DNA of 64,000 nt from an uncultured Pseudomonadota bacterium (GTDB lineage: Bacteria; Pseudomonadota; Gammaproteobacteria; Burkholderiales; JALYOK01): NCBI GenBank assembly GCA_902826775.1, contig CADEHE010000001.1, positions 124,001-188,000 on the forward strand, in the 5' to 3' direction. Shown piece by piece: positions 6,533-54,481 of the stretch. The first letter of the stretch is position 1, and the number at the start of each line of letters is the position of its first letter. The notes under the pieces were generated by a model. That model worked only from the letters and a program-made list of their open reading frames with translations, was not told the DNA's origin and made no database searches. The position numbers and the translations under genes were made by a program.

Positions 6533-7680
6533 GTATGCACCTTCACTGCCGGGTTTGCAGCCGATCTAGTAGTGGCGGTGCCCAGCACTTCCTGATAAAC
6601 GCGGTAGTTGCCGGCCACCATCGCCGGCAAGGAAAACTCAGCCTCCACCAACTGTCTGCCCGCCGCGCCACAGCGGCGGCGCAGATCAGCATTGCTTAGC
6701 AATTCGATCATGGCACTGCCCAACGCCTGCTTATCCCCCGGTGGAATCAAACGGCCGGTAATCCCATCGCGCACGATTTCCGGCATGCCGCCGGCGTCAC
6801 TGGCAATGATGGGCACCGCGCAGGCGGCCGCCTCAAGCAACGAAACGCCCAAGCCTTCCATCAAGGCGGGATGAACGACCAGGTCCAGGCTCGGCAATAT
6901 CTTCTCCATATCGGTTCGAAAACCGGCAAACAGCACGCGCTCACTCAGCCCGCGCTCGGCACATAAGCGGCGCATCTCTTCCGCCAGCGGGCCTTGGCCG
7001 AACAACAATATGCGCGTGTTCGGTGCGCGCTGCAGCACGCTCGGCAGCGCCTCGATCAGCACGCGGTGCCCCTTGCGCTCGATGAACTGTGCCAACATGC
7101 CCACGGCGAGTTCACCCTCGCGCAGACCGAACTCGCGCACAAACCAGGCGCGCTGCTCGGCCGCCGCCGCTGGCTGAAAGCGTTCCGTGTCGACCGCGCT
7201 GGGCACACAGACGATTTTCTCCTGAGCAACGCCCGCCTGCTCGATCAACACTTGGCGTATGCCCTGCGAAATTGTGATGACGCGCCGGTACAAGCCGTAC
7301 TTGAACTTCACCAGCCAACGCTTTTCCGGGTTGTCGACGCGGCGGCTGAGGATAGCGGGCACAGCCTCGCGCTTCGCCGCCAAGCCCGCCCAAATATCGG
7401 CGCCACGGCGGCTGTGCACGTGGACGAGATCGGCGTGCTCCGCGCGCAGCACGCGGCGCACGCGTGCGCGCATGCGAATATCCGCGTCGCCGCTCATTGG
7501 AATGGCATAGACTTTTGCCGCAATATCTTGCGCCGCAGCGGCAATTGCGCTGCCCGCCGGGCACACCAAAATGTGCCGATCACCCGGCGTGCCCATGGCG
7601 CGCAGTCCACGCAGCAATTGCAGCACTTGCACCGCGCCGCCGTACAAGTGCGTACCGGCTTCGACGTGAACGACGATCAT
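6529..7680 (-). CDS. GT4 glycosyltransferase
   Basis: 383 aa when started at the ATG at 7680, which overlaps the stop codon of the upstream GT9 gene (ATGA at 7677-7680). The frame stays open 35 codons further upstream, but that extension lies inside the GT9 gene and lacks family similarity. Motifs: VEAGTHLYGGAVQVLQLLRG at the N-terminus, LVHVHSRRGADIWAGL, and donor-site HPALMEGLGVSLLEAAACAVP with complete E-G-x-G-x-x-x-x-E-A. Coupled translation on both sides implies that the three enzymes at 5.4-8.7 kb are made together. Confidence 0.9.
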   Translation of the reverse strand: MIVVHVEAGTHLYGGAVQVLQLLRGLRAMGTPGDRHILVCPAGSAIAAAAQDIAAKVYAIPMSGDADIRMRARVRRVLRAEHADLVHVHSRRGADIWAGLAAKREAVPAILSRRVDNPEKRWLVKFKYGLYRRVITISQGIRQVLIEQAGVAQEKIVCVPSAVDTERFQPAAAAEQRAWFVREFGLREGELAVGMLAQFIERKGHRVLIEALPSVLQRAPNTRILLFGQGPLAEEMRRLCAERGLSERVLFAGFRTDMEKILPSLDLVVHPALMEGLGVSLLEAAACAVPIIASDAGGMPEIVRDGITGRLIPPGDKQALGSAMIELLSNADLRRRCGAAGRQLVEAEFSLPAMVAGNYRVYQEVLGTATTRSAANPAVKVHT

Positions 7681-34338: not shown

Positions 34339-35841
34339 ATGTCGGTTGCCGTCCTCTATAGCCGCGCCTTGGACGGTGTCGACGCACCGCTAGTCACCGT
34401 CGAAGCGCACTTGGCGAACGGGCTGCCGAGTTTCACCATCGTCGGCCTACCCGAAGCGGAAGTGAAAGAAGCGCGCGACCGTGTGCGCGCGGCGCTGCAA
34501 AATGCCCGCTTCGAATTCCCGCAACGGCGCGTGACCGTCAACTTGGCGCCAGCGGATCTGCCGAAAGAATCCGGCCGCTTCGACTTGCCGATCGCGCTCG
34601 GCATTCTGGCCGCCTCAGGGCAAATCCCCGCGGACAAATTACAGGACTACGAATTCGCCGGCGAGCTCGCCCTTACTGGGCAGTTGCGCCCGATCCGCGG
34701 GGCGCTGGCGATGACTTACCGCGCTACGCGCGACGGTCGCGCTTTCATACTGCCAAAAGAATCCGCCCATGAATCAAGTTTCGTGCGCGCGGCAGAGATA
34801 TACCCCGCAGAGAATCTGCTACAAGTGTGCGCGCATTTGGCCGGGCGCGAGAGCCTGGCGCGCCACAGCGCAAGCACACAAGCGCCCGCGCCGAGCTATC
34901 CGGACTTAAACGAAGTCAAAGGCCAATCCCACGCCAAGCGCGCGCTCGAAATCGCCGCGGCCGGCGCGCACAGCCTGCTGATGAGCGGGCCGCCCGGCAC
35001 CGGCAAATCCATGCTCGCCGCGCGCCTGCCCGGCATCTTGCCGCCGATGAGCGAAGACGATGCGCTGGAAAGCGCAGCGATCCAGTCGCTCGGCAGCAGC
35101 GGCTTTCGTGTCGATCACTTCGCCGTGCGGCCTTACCGCGCACCGCATCACACCGCCTCATCGGTGGCGCTGGTGGGCGGCGGCAGCAACCCGCGACCCG
35201 GTGAGATCTCGCTCGCGCATCATGGCGTTTTGTTCCTCGATGAATTGCCCGAGTTCGAACGCAGCGTGCTAGAAGTGCTGCGCGAACCGCTCGAATCCGG
35301 CCGCATCCACATCTCGCGCGCCGCACGCCAAGCCGAGTTCCCTGCCAAGTTTCAGTTAATTGCCGCGATGAACCCCTGCCCGTGCGGCTATCTCGGCCAC
35401 CCGAACGGCAGATGCCGCTGCACGCCCGATCAAATCGCACGCTATCGCAGCAAAATTTCCGGTCCGCTGCTCGATCGCATCGACCTGCAGATCGAAGTGC
35501 CGGCCGTGCCGGTCGACGAACTTGCCGGGCGAGCCGAAGGCGAGAGCAGTGCCACTGTACGCGAGCGCGTCGCCGCGGCGCGCGAACGGCAAATCACGCG
35601 CCAAGGCAAACCCAACGCACAGCTCGGCCCGAAAGAAATCGAAACGCACGTCACGGCAGATGCCGATGCGGAAACGTTGCTGCGCCACGCCATCAGCCGC
35701 TTGAATTTATCGGCCCGCGCCTACCACCGCGTTATGAAAGTCGCGCAAACGATCGCGGATTTAGCGGGCAGTGAACGCTGCACGAAAGCGCACGTGGCGG
35801 AGGCGATTCAGTATCGGCGAGGGCTTTCTACAACGGCTTAA
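34339..35841 (+). CDS. comM: Magnesium chelatase-like AAA+ ATPase ComM (YifB)
   Basis: 500 aa, full length. N-terminal ChlI-like domain (VTVEAHLANGLPSFTIVGLPE), Walker A GPPGTGKSMLA, Walker B LFLDELPEF, the zinc-like NPCPCGYLGHPNGRCRCT stretch and a C-terminal Mg_chelatase_C domain. ComM is a branch-migration helicase acting in natural transformation. The last 125 codons are nearly duplicated at 37816-38190, about 2.36 kb downstream. The stop overlaps the convergent dgt gene by 14 bp. Confidence 0.96.
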   Translation: MSVAVLYSRALDGVDAPLVTVEAHLANGLPSFTIVGLPEAEVKEARDRVRAALQNARFEFPQRRVTVNLAPADLPKESGRFDLPIALGILAASGQIPADKLQDYEFAGELALTGQLRPIRGALAMTYRATRDGRAFILPKESAHESSFVRAAEIYPAENLLQVCAHLAGRESLARHSASTQAPAPSYPDLNEVKGQSHAKRALEIAAAGAHSLLMSGPPGTGKSMLAARLPGILPPMSEDDALESAAIQSLGSSGFRVDHFAVRPYRAPHHTASSVALVGGGSNPRPGEISLAHHGVLFLDELPEFERSVLEVLREPLESGRIHISRAARQAEFPAKFQLIAAMNPCPCGYLGHPNGRCRCTPDQIARYRSKISGPLLDRIDLQIEVPAVPVDELAGRAEGESSATVRERVAAARERQITRQGKPNAQLGPKEIETHVTADADAETLLRHAISRLNLSARAYHRVMKVAQTIADLAGSERCTKAHVAEAIQYRRGLSTTA

Positions 35842-37745: not shown

Positions 37746-37815
37746 CTAGCCATGGCTGATTGTCTCCACGCGTTGGCTCCGCGCATGCAAGCGCGCAAAT
37801 GGCGCAAGCGGTGTC

Positions 37816-38190
37816 GGTCCACTGCTCGATCGCATTGATTTGCAGATCGAAGTGCCGGCCGTGCCGGTCGACGAACTTGCCGGGCGAGCCGAAGGCGAGA
37901 GCAGTGCCACTGTACGCGAGCGCGTTGCGGCAGCGCGCGATCGCCAAATCACGCGCCAAGGCAAACCCAACGCGCAACTCGGCCCCAAGGAAATCGACAC
38001 TCGCGTCGACGCGGACGCCGATGCGGAAACGTTACTGCGCCAAGCCATCAGCCGCTTGAATTTGTCGGCGCGTGCGTACCACCGCGTCATGAAAGTCGCG
38101 CGCTCGATCGCGGATTTGGCCGGCAGCGCGCAAGTAACCAAAGTGCAGGTGGCAGAGGCGATTCAGTATCGGCGTGGATTGAGCAATTGA
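37816..38190 (+). pseudogene. Duplicated 3' fragment of comM
   Basis: Reads GPLLDRIDLQIEVPAVPVDE to a stop, the last 124 codons of ComM, without the ATPase domain. Aligned to 35461-35841 it has no indels up to the last two codons; by my hand count about 46 of 360 positions differ (roughly 87% identity), with the first 120 bp the most similar. There is no start codon or ribosome binding site of its own, so it is a remnant. See the comM entry. Confidence 0.9.
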
Positions 38191-38995: not shown

Positions 38996-39433
38996 CAACC
39001 TGCTTAACGGGCGGCGCAATGCGCGCTGCCCGAGTGAGCACCGCGAAGTTTCGGCCGCAGCCATTCGCGCTGCTGCCCGCCTCTCTCTCCTGGTTTTTCC
39101 CGCGCAATTCTGCCGCGAAAGCGCTGGTCTAAGACCTTGGTCTTACACCGTTTATCCTGCGCCAAATACCCCATACCGCTCAGTGGATACGCCGAGAACC
39201 GGCTTTACACCTTATTGCTAGACAATTACTCCAGATATTGACGCTCGCGAGGCGTAAGACTTAGGTGCAATTTTCAAGCACCCACTACACGCCTACGATG
39301 CACATCATGGAATCGCGGCATGAATGAACCAGCGGCGGCTCCTAAGGAAAGCACCGCATCCAACACGCAGTGCGCCGCGTAAAGGCGAAGCAAGTTCTGA
39401 AGTTTTTTGTTCACCCACTTTGAGGAGATGACC
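38996..39433. other. 438-bp intergenic region before the NPLxP genes
   Basis: Contains a 10-bp hairpin right after the GST stop (39008-39032, no T tract), an 11-bp palindrome GGTCTAAGACC (39126-39136) that might be an operator, and one copy of the repeated MESRHE leader element (39307-39353). After that element a short open frame lacks a good start and ends at 39382. No convincing promoter was found. Confidence 0.5.
39307..39353 (+). repeat. Leader element, copy 1 (MESRHE mini-ORF and SD box)
   Basis: ATGGAATCGCGGCATGAA encodes MESRHE followed by TGA; 13 bp later comes CCTAAGGAAAGCA. The same two blocks occur at 40397-40434. In this copy the sequence after the SD box (39354 on) has CATCCAACACGCAG where copy 2 has the start codon ATGAACGCAG, then soon CGCCGCGTAA, resembling an acidic-peptide gene with its middle deleted. 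Confidence 0.65.
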
Positions 39434-39697
39434 ATGTTGAAAGCACTTTCTACCGTTGTTGCCGTTTCCGCTTTGTTCGCTGCCGGCGCTGCCAGCGCAG
39501 CTGACAGCAATCCGCTGCACCCCAGCTACACGACCTTCGCCACCAGCATTGATTTCGGCGCGAGCAAAGCGAGCATCAATGTCGCGAAGAATCCGCTCAC
39601 GCCCACTTTCTATCAGTGGAACGCGGCGACAAACAAGGACGGCGACGTGCAAATCGTCATGAACAATCCGCTGCAACCGAACTACAAGCGTTCCTAA
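39434..39697 (+). CDS. Small secreted protein with three NPLxP motifs (copy 1)
   Basis: 87 aa. Signal peptide of about 22 residues with AxA cleavage (AASA/ADS). The mature 65-residue peptide has three motifs: NPLHPSY (26-32), KNPLTPTFYQWN (52-63) and NNPLQPNYK (78-86), separated by less conserved spacers. No cysteines. The ATG at 39434 is chosen because GAGGAG lies 6 nt upstream. A paralogue follows after 49 bp with the same three motifs in order. I recognise no family. Periplasmic or extracellular; the fixed spacing suggests a small folded unit or a precursor that is processed. Confidence 0.82.
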   Translation: MLKALSTVVAVSALFAAGAASAADSNPLHPSYTTFATSIDFGASKASINVAKNPLTPTFYQWNAATNKDGDVQIVMNNPLQPNYKRS

Positions 39698-39746
39698 GCT
39701 CGCACTCGCGCTTTACCTAACTGACTCATCATCGAAAGGAATTGAA

Positions 39747-40007
39747 ATGTTCACCAAAACCATTTCTGTTGTTGCTTTAACTCTTGCTGCCGGCGTTGTT
39801 GGTGCCGCTGAAACCAATCCGCTGCACCCCGGCTACGCACATTTCACCGCGACCGCCAATGTGCAAACCAGCGGCGGCAGCGCTGCAATCGCGAAAAATC
39901 CGCTGACGCCCAGCTTCTATCAATGGAACGTCGCCACGCCCGCGAACGCCAAAGCACCGGTGATCGTGGAAAACAACCCACTGCAACCCGGCTTCAAGCA
40001 TTCGTAA
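39747..40007 (+). CDS. Small secreted protein with three NPLxP motifs (copy 2)
   Basis: 86 aa with a signal peptide (about 1-21, ending VVGAAE). The mature part repeats the layout of the preceding gene: NPLHPGY (24-30), KNPLTPSFYQWN (50-61) and NNPLQPGFKHS (77-86). Spacers differ (e.g. ANVQTSGGSAAIA against DFGASKASINVA), so selection clearly acts on the NPLxP blocks. GAAAGGAATTG precedes the ATG. A strong hairpin follows the gene. Function unknown. Confidence 0.82.
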   Translation: MFTKTISVVALTLAAGVVGAAETNPLHPGYAHFTATANVQTSGGSAAIAKNPLTPSFYQWNVATPANAKAPVIVENNPLQPGFKHS

Positions 40008-40082: not shown

Positions 40083-40107
40083 GGCGCGATGCTTTTGGCA
40101 TCGCGCC
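40083..40107 (+). terminator. Hairpin after the NPLxP pair, ahead of the acidic peptide gene
   Basis: Perfect 10-bp stem GGCGCGATGC/GCATCGCGCC with loop TTTTG, then TTTAT. It lies 8 nt before the GAAGGAG ribosome binding site of the next small gene, so it is either a leaky terminator of the NPLxP transcript or an attenuator setting the level of the downstream gene. Confidence 0.65.
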
Positions 40108-40127: not shown

Positions 40128-40292
40128 GTGAATATTAATCTGCAGGAGATACCCGAAGTACCCGAACTCGACGCCACTGAGGACTTCACTGATTTAATGT
40201 GGTCTGACCGGTCTGACCTCGATCTATTTACGCTACTGAGTGAGGCCCGTAAGGAGTTAGCGCATCAAGCAGAGGATCGGCTGGCGGCATAA
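40128..40292 (+). CDS. Small acidic protein ending RLAA (54 aa)
   Basis: GTG start at 40128 with GAAGGAG 5 nt before it. The product reads NINLQEIPEVPELDATEDF, then DLMWSDRSDLDLFTLL, and ends AEDRLAA. Very acidic in the first 35 residues, no signal peptide. The block D-x-M-W-x-D...D-L and the terminal RLAA recur in the gene at 40440, so the two are probably distant paralogues. It could be a leader-type precursor peptide, but no modifying enzyme is adjacent. No family recognised. Confidence 0.6.
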   Translation: MNINLQEIPEVPELDATEDFTDLMWSDRSDLDLFTLLSEARKELAHQAEDRLAA

Positions 40293-40396: not shown

Positions 40397-40434
40397 ATGA
40401 AATCGCGGCACGAAACGACATCCTAAGGAAAGCA
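40397..40434 (+). repeat. Leader element, copy 2 (MKSRHETTS mini-ORF and SD box)
   Basis: ATGAAATCGCGGCACGAA encodes MKSRHE and continues to a TAA that overlaps the block CCTAAGGAAAGCA, the ribosome binding site of the acidic gene at 40440. The stop-SD overlap suggests translational coupling. Its match to 39307-39353 is clear in both halves. Confidence 0.65.
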
Positions 40435-40439
40435 TTGCC

Positions 40440-40592
40440 ATGAACGCAGAAGCACCCGAAGCACTGGGGCCGGACGCCATCGACGATACCGACATGATCA
40501 ACATGCTTTGGGAGGATTGCGATCTCGAAGCAATGTTCAGCCAAGCCCTCGAAGACGTCGATGTGAGCAGCGACTACCGTCTCGCTGCGTAG
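40440..40592 (+). CDS. Small acidic protein ending RLAA (50 aa)
   Basis: Starts MNAEAPEALGPDAIDDTDM, then INMLWEDCDLEAMFSQAL, and ends SSDYRLAA. One cysteine, strongly acidic, no signal peptide or membrane helix. AAGGAAAG lies 7 nt before the ATG. Similar in plan to the 54-aa gene upstream (M-L/M-W-x-D, then D-L, terminal RLAA). A 14-bp palindrome ATAGCCTAGGCTAT lies upstream at 40371-40384. Function unknown; confidence in translation comes from the leader and the shared ending. Confidence 0.55.
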   Translation: MNAEAPEALGPDAIDDTDMINMLWEDCDLEAMFSQALEDVDVSSDYRLAA

Positions 40593-52675: not shown

Positions 52676-54481
52676 ATGGTTCTCAACAAGCAGTTGAAGG
52701 CACTGCCGTTGGCCCTCGCACTCGCCGCTCCCGGCGCCGTGTTGGCCAATGCCGACCTGGAAGCGGCAATAGCCAACCCGGGCAACTGGGCTGCTCAAGC
52801 CGGTGACATGTTCAACCAACGCTACAGCAAACTGACGCAGATTAATAACAAGAACGTCGGCAAGATGAAGGTGGCATGGACATTCTCCACCGGCGTTTTG
52901 CGCGGCCACGAAGGCTCGCCGCTGGTCGTCGGCAACATGATGTACATCCACTCGGCTTTCCCGAACAAGGTGTTCGCGGTCGATCTCGACCAAGAGCAAA
53001 AAATTGTTTGGAAGTACGAGCCGAAGCAAGATCCCGCGGTCATCCCGCAGATGTGCTGCGACACCGTCAACCGCGGTTTGGCTTATGCAGAAGGCAAAAT
53101 ATTTCTGCAGCAGGCCGACTCGAACTTGGTTGCATTCGACGCCAAAACTGGCAAAGTGATCTGGTCCGTCAAAAACGGCGACCCCAAGCTCGGCATGGTC
53201 AACACTAATGCGCCGCACGTATTCAAAGACAAGGTGGTCACCGGTATCTCTGGTGGCGAGTGGGGGGTCCAGGGCTTTATCGCGGCCTACGACATCAACA
53301 CCGGCAAACTGGCATGGAAAGGCATGTCGGTTGGGCCAGACGATCAGCTGTTGATGGATCCCGAGAAATCGATGACCTGGACCGACGGCAAGATGGCGCC
53401 GGTCGGCAAAGACTCTTCCCTGAAAACCTGGAAAGGCGACATGTGGAAGATCGGCGGCGGCACGACGTGGGGCTGGTATTCCTACGACAAAGCGCTGAAC
53501 GCACTGTTCTACGGCAGCGGCAACCCCGGCACCTGGAATCCGTCGCAGCGCCCCGGCGACAACAAGTGGTCGATGTCGATCTGGTCGCGTGACGTCGATA
53601 CCGGCAAGGTCAACTGGGTCTACCAAATGACGCCGTTCGATGAGTGGGATTTCGACGGCGTAAACGAAATGATCCTGGCGGATTTCCCGGTCAAGGGCAA
53701 GATGACCAAGGCGCTGGTGCACTTCGATCGCAACGGCTTTGCCTACACCATGGATCGTGTTACAGGCGCGCTGCTGGTCGCCGAGAAGTATGACCCGGCG
53801 GTGAACTGGGCCACGCACGTCGACATGAAGACCGGCCGTCCGCAAGTGGTATCGAAGTACTCCACCGCGCAAAACGGTCCGGACGTCAACAGCAAAGGCA
53901 TCTGCCCGGCGGCGTTGGGCACGAAAGACCAGCAACCTGCTGCGTACAACCCGAAGAACAAAATGTTCTACGTGCCGACCAACCACGTCTGCATGGACTA
54001 CGAACCGTTCAAGGTTGAGTACACCGCAGGCCAGCCGTACGTAGGCGCGACGCTGTCGATGTTCCCGGCGCCGAACAGCCACGGCGGCATGGGCAACTTC
54101 ATCATGTGGGATGCCGGTACCGGCAAGATCAAGCAATCCAAAGCCGAGAAATTCTCGGTGTGGTCGGGTGTGCTGACTACTGCCGGCAACATCGCTTGCT
54201 ACGGCACGCTGGAAGGCTACTTGAAGTGCGTTGATGCGAATAACATCAACAAAGAGCTGTACAAGTTCAAGACCCCCTCCGGCATTATCGGCAACGTGTT
54301 CACCTACACGCACAAAGGCAAGCAATACATCGGCGTCTACTCGGGCATCGGCGGCTGGGCCGGCATCGGCATGGCAGCGGGCCTCGAGAAAGACAGCGAC
54401 GGCCTCGGTGCAGTGGGTGGTTACAAAGATCTGAAGAACCACACAGATCTGGGTGGCAGCTTGACGATCTTCTCGCTGTAA
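52676..54481 (+). CDS. xoxF: Lanthanide-dependent PQQ methanol dehydrogenase XoxF
   Basis: 601 aa with a signal peptide (about 1-25) and an eight-bladed PQQ propeller. The vicinal disulfide Cys127-Cys128 (MCCDT) is present. Metal ligands visible: Glu195 (GGEWGV), Asn283 ([10 protein letters not shown]), catalytic Asp325 and the additional Asp327 in [10 protein letters not shown]. Asp at the last position is the mark of lanthanide enzymes; calcium MxaF has Ala there. Trp propeller-docking repeats run through the chain. It oxidises methanol (and often formaldehyde) in the periplasm. AGGAGG precedes the ATG; a strong terminator follows. Confidence 0.96.

Follow-up and report, generated by a model that had tools for sequence, protein, structure and literature searches.

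NPLxP-block proteins of one bacterial genome: small exported, cysteine-free forms and an EF-hand branch

The window (the whole 64,000-nucleotide stretch of DNA that was analysed, which belongs to contig C1 of a 5.4 Mb genome) encodes an adjacent pair of small secreted proteins, P1 and P2, with the same three NPLxP-type blocks. The three-block layout occurs in at least nine proteins of this genome (P1-P9), a count obtained by profile and pattern that may miss more divergent copies, and a tenth protein (P10) has the C-terminal block alone. None of the protein-family libraries searched contains the family, which is lineage-restricted as far as sampled. Its nine members take two forms: cysteine-free proteins of about 65 aa, and longer proteins in which the blocks flank EF-hands. 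A protein was counted as a member if it has a signal peptide and if three blocks of the type NPLxPx[YF/H] stand at the N-terminus, in the middle and at the C-terminus of its mature form. The pair is laid out as follows (window coordinates).

39434..39697, + strand: P1, a secreted small protein of 87 aa (ATG to TAA, stop included), with GAGGAG upstream of the ATG and a positive coding score
39434..39499, + strand: P1 signal peptide, probable cleavage between ASA and AD, placed by rule and hydrophobicity peak
39509..39529, + strand: P1 block 1, NPLHPSY, at residue 26
39590..39610, + strand: P1 block 2, NPLTPTF and then YQWN, at residue 53
39665..39685, + strand: P1 block 3, NPLQPNY, at residue 78, in the C-terminal form NPLxPxYxRS
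39747..40007, + strand: P2, a P1 paralogue (49% identical) of 86 aa (ATG to TAA)
39747..39806, + strand: P2 signal peptide, probable cleavage between VGA and AE, placed by rule and hydrophobicity peak
39816..39836, + strand: P2 block 1, NPLHPGY, at residue 24
39897..39917, + strand: P2 block 2, NPLTPSF and then YQWN, at residue 51
39975..39995, + strand: P2 block 3, NPLQPGF, at residue 77

A ribosome-binding site precedes both genes, and both products begin with a Sec-type signal peptide whose end (AxA or VGA) was recognised by inspection of the residues. The mature proteins are 65-66 aa long, contain no cysteine and carry one (P1) or three (P2) histidines, with the outer blocks at their very ends. 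More than one NPLxP arose in 0 of 200,000 shuffles for each mature sequence. The first-pass annotation had described two adjacent secreted genes with three common blocks and no cysteines, and its coordinates, signal peptides and exact blocks are all confirmed. The structure prediction that it proposed was uninformative for P1 (pLDDT 47, no confident fold); the alignment held six sequences, and the low confidence of the model may stem from this rather than from disorder.

Among P1-P4, dN (Nei-Gojobori) is 0.07-0.14 in the blocks vs 0.23-0.98 in the spacers, a comparison of paralogues within one genome, and synonymous changes are seen in blocks and spacers alike. The blocks are thus conserved as protein, in line with the earlier view that they are under selection and that the spacers have diverged.

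A protein search with the pair identified a tandem cluster of P3, P4 and P5 (C1:481250-482170, - strand) and P6 (C7:95806-96099). P7, on C3, was added by profile search, and P8 (C4), P9 (C7) and P10 (C7) were reached through a DNA pattern for NPLxPx[YF]. This degenerate pattern, AAYCCNYTNNANCCNNNNTWY, has 21 matches in the genome vs 0 for a reversed control pattern, and never more than six per genome in 398 other genomes of the order, indicating that the expansion is real and private to the lineage within a sample in which this is the sole genome of its family. A further NPLNPKY at C1:382288 was set aside, as it sits within a large unrelated reading frame. Some blocks deviate: block 2 reads SPL in P4 and DPL in P8, and block 3 of P8 ends in H. 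The earlier description of the proteins as paired holds for P1 and P2, which are adjacent, but is too narrow for a set comprising two-gene and three-gene clusters and single genes, and it missed the EF-hand branch.

Outside this genome, no relatives of P1 or P2 were found in Pfam, NCBIfam, PHROGs or PDB sequences, nor in plasmids or phages. Two seeded scans of 85k genomes likewise returned none; these scans need short near-exact stretches and could therefore miss distant relatives, and the set may lack the records nearest the source genome. The A1 profile, run against 399 genomes of the order and 340 of the class (about 735 in all), found relatives within the source genome only. Three weak matches in the order set (E 0.001-0.004) were taken as chance, and two of them contain internal stop codons. 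A literature search for NPLHPSY or NPLHP returned nothing relevant. The proposal that this is a new family, for which a profile search was suggested as a check, is supported in the collections covered here.

We tentatively read these proteins as a lineage-restricted periplasmic (or secreted) family whose blocks at the N-terminus, middle and C-terminus dock to a shared partner, an explanation that we favour with somewhat less than even confidence. After export, the mature small proteins would stay largely unstructured and would offer their three blocks as docking motifs to one envelope partner. EF-hand (Ca2+-responsive) and metal-island members would contact the same partner through their own blocks, and the small forms could act there as calcium-independent multivalent ligands or competitors. 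We infer this docking role for the NPLxP blocks, and the evidence is consistent with the first-pass suggestion of a structural or ligand-binding module.

P7, P8 and P9 (132, 120 and 145 aa) share one layout, a signal peptide and then three blocks that alternate with two EF-hands. An EF-hand was taken as a helix-loop-helix with a DxDxDGxxxxxE loop and a Pfam match above the gathering score. P7 passes this score with EF-hand_1 (32.7 vs 25.4), P8 with EF-hand_5 (41.6 vs 25.9) and P9 with EF-hand_7 (30.9 vs 30). For P1 and P2, even a threshold of E 1 brought no EF-hand match in Pfam, and both fall outside the EF-hand superfamily. A profile-profile comparison matches the small and EF-hand forms (98.2%, E 6e-14) across the signal peptide, block 1 and block 2 only, so that common descent and a shared module are indistinguishable and the link between the two forms consists of the blocks and their order. 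The EF-hand link of the NPLxP set is well supported, and the small forms may have descended from EF-hand forms.

The predicted structure of P8 has a mean pLDDT of about 70-79 per block over residues 51-110, and its nearest solved folds are EF-hand and calmodulin-like domains, none better than E 0.017. Helices span 35-57 and 77-93, each starting from the final proline of block 1 or block 2 (NPLDP and DPLSP, respectively), and block 3 is a free C-terminal tail. This model, the one EF-hand model obtained, supports the prediction that the internal blocks of P8 cap the first helix of each EF-hand. The blocks could be a fold element in which NPLxP caps the entering EF-hand helix and links the pair, with small proteins that lost the metal loops and still fold around the caps. 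We consider this possible but improbable. Both internal blocks of the P8 model directly precede helices, block positions correspond between small and EF-hand forms, and P1 retains a loop-like NKDGDVQI ahead of block 3. However, this remnant is lost in P2-P5 and P1 and P2 have no detected EF-hand, P10 has a C-terminal block yet no EF-hand, and of 23 EF-hand-profile loci inspected across 21 further genomes of the order, none contains NPLxP.

The members lie in differing genomic surroundings, and a single partner common to all is therefore not obvious. P6 belongs to a copper-resistance island, where it follows what we take to be a CusRS-like two-component pair; the island presumably also encodes a CopA-like ATPase, a multicopper oxidase and CusF-like proteins (names read from translations). 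P8 is flanked by two DUF2282 (Buf1 bufferin) genes (L085:4183-4467, - strand, and 7071-7364, + strand), and a DoxX-like gene is also near; no enzyme partner genes for the DUF2282 pair were recognised by eye across 14 kb. The His-rich P10 has an RND efflux set on one side and, on the other, a P-type ATPase accompanied by a MerR-type regulator. P7 is located between creD and a CreC-like kinase, and P9 adjoins sugar-phosphate and glycogen genes. Both P1-P2 and P5-P4-P3 have glutathione-transferase genes nearby, and metal genes are absent from these surroundings. The idea that P5-P4-P3 form one operon with the kinase downstream was rejected, given a GC-rich hairpin seen between them in the sequence.

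Two further features of the window lie on either side of the pair. Upstream, a 360-base segment at 35460-35819, the 3' end of a comM/yifB-like gene (34339-35841), occurs again 2.4 kb downstream at 37815-38174 (315/360 identical), where the copy leaves an open fragment of 116 aa ahead of the glutathione-transferase gene. Downstream, a PQQ methanol dehydrogenase gene (52676-54481, + strand) has a DYDG-like signature (here DFDG) that we take to be that of the lanthanide-dependent XoxF, and it is followed by presumed cytochrome and binding-protein genes.

Several of these contexts would suit metal chaperones or buffers, whether for copper, calcium or lanthanide: the surroundings of P6, P8 and P10, the EF-hands, the lanthanide-type methanol dehydrogenase gene 12 kb off, the histidine within NPLHP and a weak lanmodulin match of P7 (33 bits). 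Such a role is nevertheless unlikely. The mature P1 and P2 lack cysteine and have only their one and three histidines, the x of NPLxP varies across members (H, T, Q, N, D, S or L), and P1-P5 have no metal-gene neighbours. The EF loops of P7-P9 lack the proline that lanmodulin has at loop position 2, and the P7 match is far under the cut-off of 135 bits.

We give slightly less weight again to NPLxPxYxR[SN]-COOH as a tag that sorts or retains envelope proteins, to which the N-terminal and middle copies would be secondary. Every member ends in a C-terminal copy of the block, which is the sole copy in P10; yet P10 ends in RSR, the known carriers number just ten in 5.4 Mb, and block 1 is conserved at least as well as block 3. 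We know of no processing enzyme for such a tag. Sortase- and PEP-CTERM-type signals consist of a C-terminal motif, then a hydrophobic segment and a basic tail. This type of sorting was rejected, as the hydrophobic C-terminal segment is absent (the maximum 15-residue hydropathy beyond residue 26 of P1 and P2 is 0.56-0.57) and the block itself is C-terminal. Barely credible is the first-pass idea of a pro-peptide, an exported precursor of three repeats plus spacers with cleavage at the repeats, here taken as freeing peptides that act as signals. Tandem-repeat pro-peptides have conserved released peptides and conserved processing sites, whereas the spacers here are unlike one another, both inside one protein and from paralogue to paralogue (dN as high as 0.98), and a conserved basic cleavage site beside the blocks is absent. 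Moreover, the first and last blocks form the two ends of the mature protein, and in the longer paralogues blocks at these positions border folded EF-hands.

The sequences upstream of P1 and P5, the first genes of the two small-protein clusters, align across about 170 bases. The elements recognised ahead of P1 are the following (window coordinates).

39130..39145, + strand: palindrome TAAGACCTTGGTCTTA, ACTU-like (CrbR/ErdR-type) site 1, matching the published ACTU list (PMC5715377)
39255..39271, + strand: TAAGACTTAGGTGCAAT, ACTU-like site 2, with identical spacing ahead of the second cluster
39272..39299, + strand: possible promoter TTTCAA-16-TACGAT, placed from the upstream alignment and the published ACTU position
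39307..39321, + strand: leader element ATGGAATCGCGGCAT, with exact pattern matches elsewhere only before P5 and at 40397

In both regions the palindrome (TAAGACCTTGGTCTTA at P1, TAAGACTTTGGTCGTAA at P5) is followed by TAAGACTTNGGTNCAATTTTCAAGC and then GCACAYCATGGAATCGCGGCAT, the latter two at identical spacing. Within the 5.4 Mb, TAAGACYNNGGTNYNA is confined to the upstream regions of the two small-protein clusters. The ACTU motif of CrbR in Pseudomonas fluorescens includes TAAGACCTTGGTCTATC, CTAGACTTACGTCCAAT and others, and acs of that species has its ACTU site at -52 to -36 (PMC5715377). CrbR and ErdR are one protein (PMC12997753). If site 2 is placed as in acs, transcription would start near 39307, eight bases past TACGAT; with this presumptive start, the ACTU sequence and spacing at P1 fit a CrbR/ErdR operator at -52 to -36. 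A sigma-70 consensus scan of the upstream region gave no match. The leader element ATGGAATCGCGGCAT likely lies near the transcript start.

Near the second cluster are a LuxR-type response regulator, for which ErdR ranks second among the NCBIfam matches (118 bits vs a cut-off of 390), and a hybrid kinase that reaches 360 bits with the NahK/ErcS model (cut-off 400). The common upstream region and its ACTU-matching repeats suggest that the two clusters probably respond together. Judged from these sequences, both are probably under a LuxR-type two-component regulator of carbon/energy stress, and ErdR/CrbR-like control of both clusters is a good hypothesis rather than a result.

The leader element occurs at window 39307-39321, at L007:8231-8245 (- strand) and at window 40397-40411, and ATGRAATCGCGGCAY has three exact genome matches, before P1, before P5 and before a small ORF at 40440. 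Near the presumed transcript start, the leader could encode a mini-ORF beginning MESRH or MKSRH that is too short to judge. Just downstream of P2 are two tiny ORFs (window 40128-40292 and 40440-40592, + strand; 54 and 50 aa) that look paralogous, with a local alignment score of 54 vs at most 43 in 500 shuffles. Both are acidic, contain tryptophan and end in RLAA, resembling a ClpXP degron. The second of them has the leader element ATGAAATCGCGGCAC in common with P1 and P5, and a search of the genome found no other copies of this ORF. A strong hairpin, GGCGCGATGCTTTTGGCATCGCGCC (window 40083-40107, + strand), lies just 5' of the first tiny ORF and could be terminator-like or a leader structure. 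An Rfam search of the region gave no match.

Taken furthest, the docking reading that we prefer makes NPLxPx[YF] a lineage-specific envelope docking code. One partner would read the block in three copies on small disordered proteins and on EF-hand sensors, and in a single C-terminal copy on a His-rich protein, and would in this way connect the responses to carbon/energy stress, calcium and metal stress; this extension we regard as rather improbable. The family is missing from the libraries and other genomes searched, yet a single bacterium exports at least nine proteins of this kind. A block common to presumably disordered small proteins and EF-hand sensors offers a clear, testable case of how a lineage may assemble an interaction system of its own in the envelope. 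From the upstream regions, a CrbR/ErdR-like regulon may include a branch of small proteins, and the bacterium also has what we take to be a lanthanide-type methanol dehydrogenase gene.

In the comparison with the CrbS/R (MxtR/ErdR) regulon, the inverted repeats ahead of the clusters agree with the list of published operators and, given the presumptive start, with their promoter position. The known targets of that regulon are, however, acetate and alcohol genes rather than small secreted proteins, and the regulator here is ErdR-like at 118 of the required 390 bits. Bufferins (Buf1, DUF2282) are likewise small and exported, P8 shares its gene group with two genes for DUF2282 proteins, and fusions of EF-hands with bufferins have been published (PMC12452194). 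P1 and P2 differ in having no cysteines and no DUF2282 match, and their identity as bufferins or MNIO-modified RiPP precursors was rejected on these grounds.

Lanmodulin (LanM, NF053806) is defined by the NCBIfam cut-off of 135 bits, four EF-hands and a proline at loop position 2. P7 resembles it as an exported EF-hand protein of similar length with a weak match, but has two clear EF loops, not four. None of the loops of P7-P9 (DADRDG, DSNGDM, DANMDG, DANKDG and DKNKDG) has the proline at position 2; with this residue absent and the score far under the cut-off, lanmodulin identity was rejected. P1 and P2 lack any EF-hand and give no match to the LanM model. Among periplasmic or secreted bacterial EF-hand proteins, of which EfhP of Pseudomonas aeruginosa is an example (PMC12452194), P7-P9 are alike in being exported and in carrying canonical EF loops (EF-hand_1/5/7) above the Pfam cut-offs, whereas P1-P6 are without an EF-hand and the 23 loci of other genomes are without NPLxP. 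We therefore file the NPLxP proteins as small exported proteins tied to the bacterial EF-hand group by a previously unreported block.
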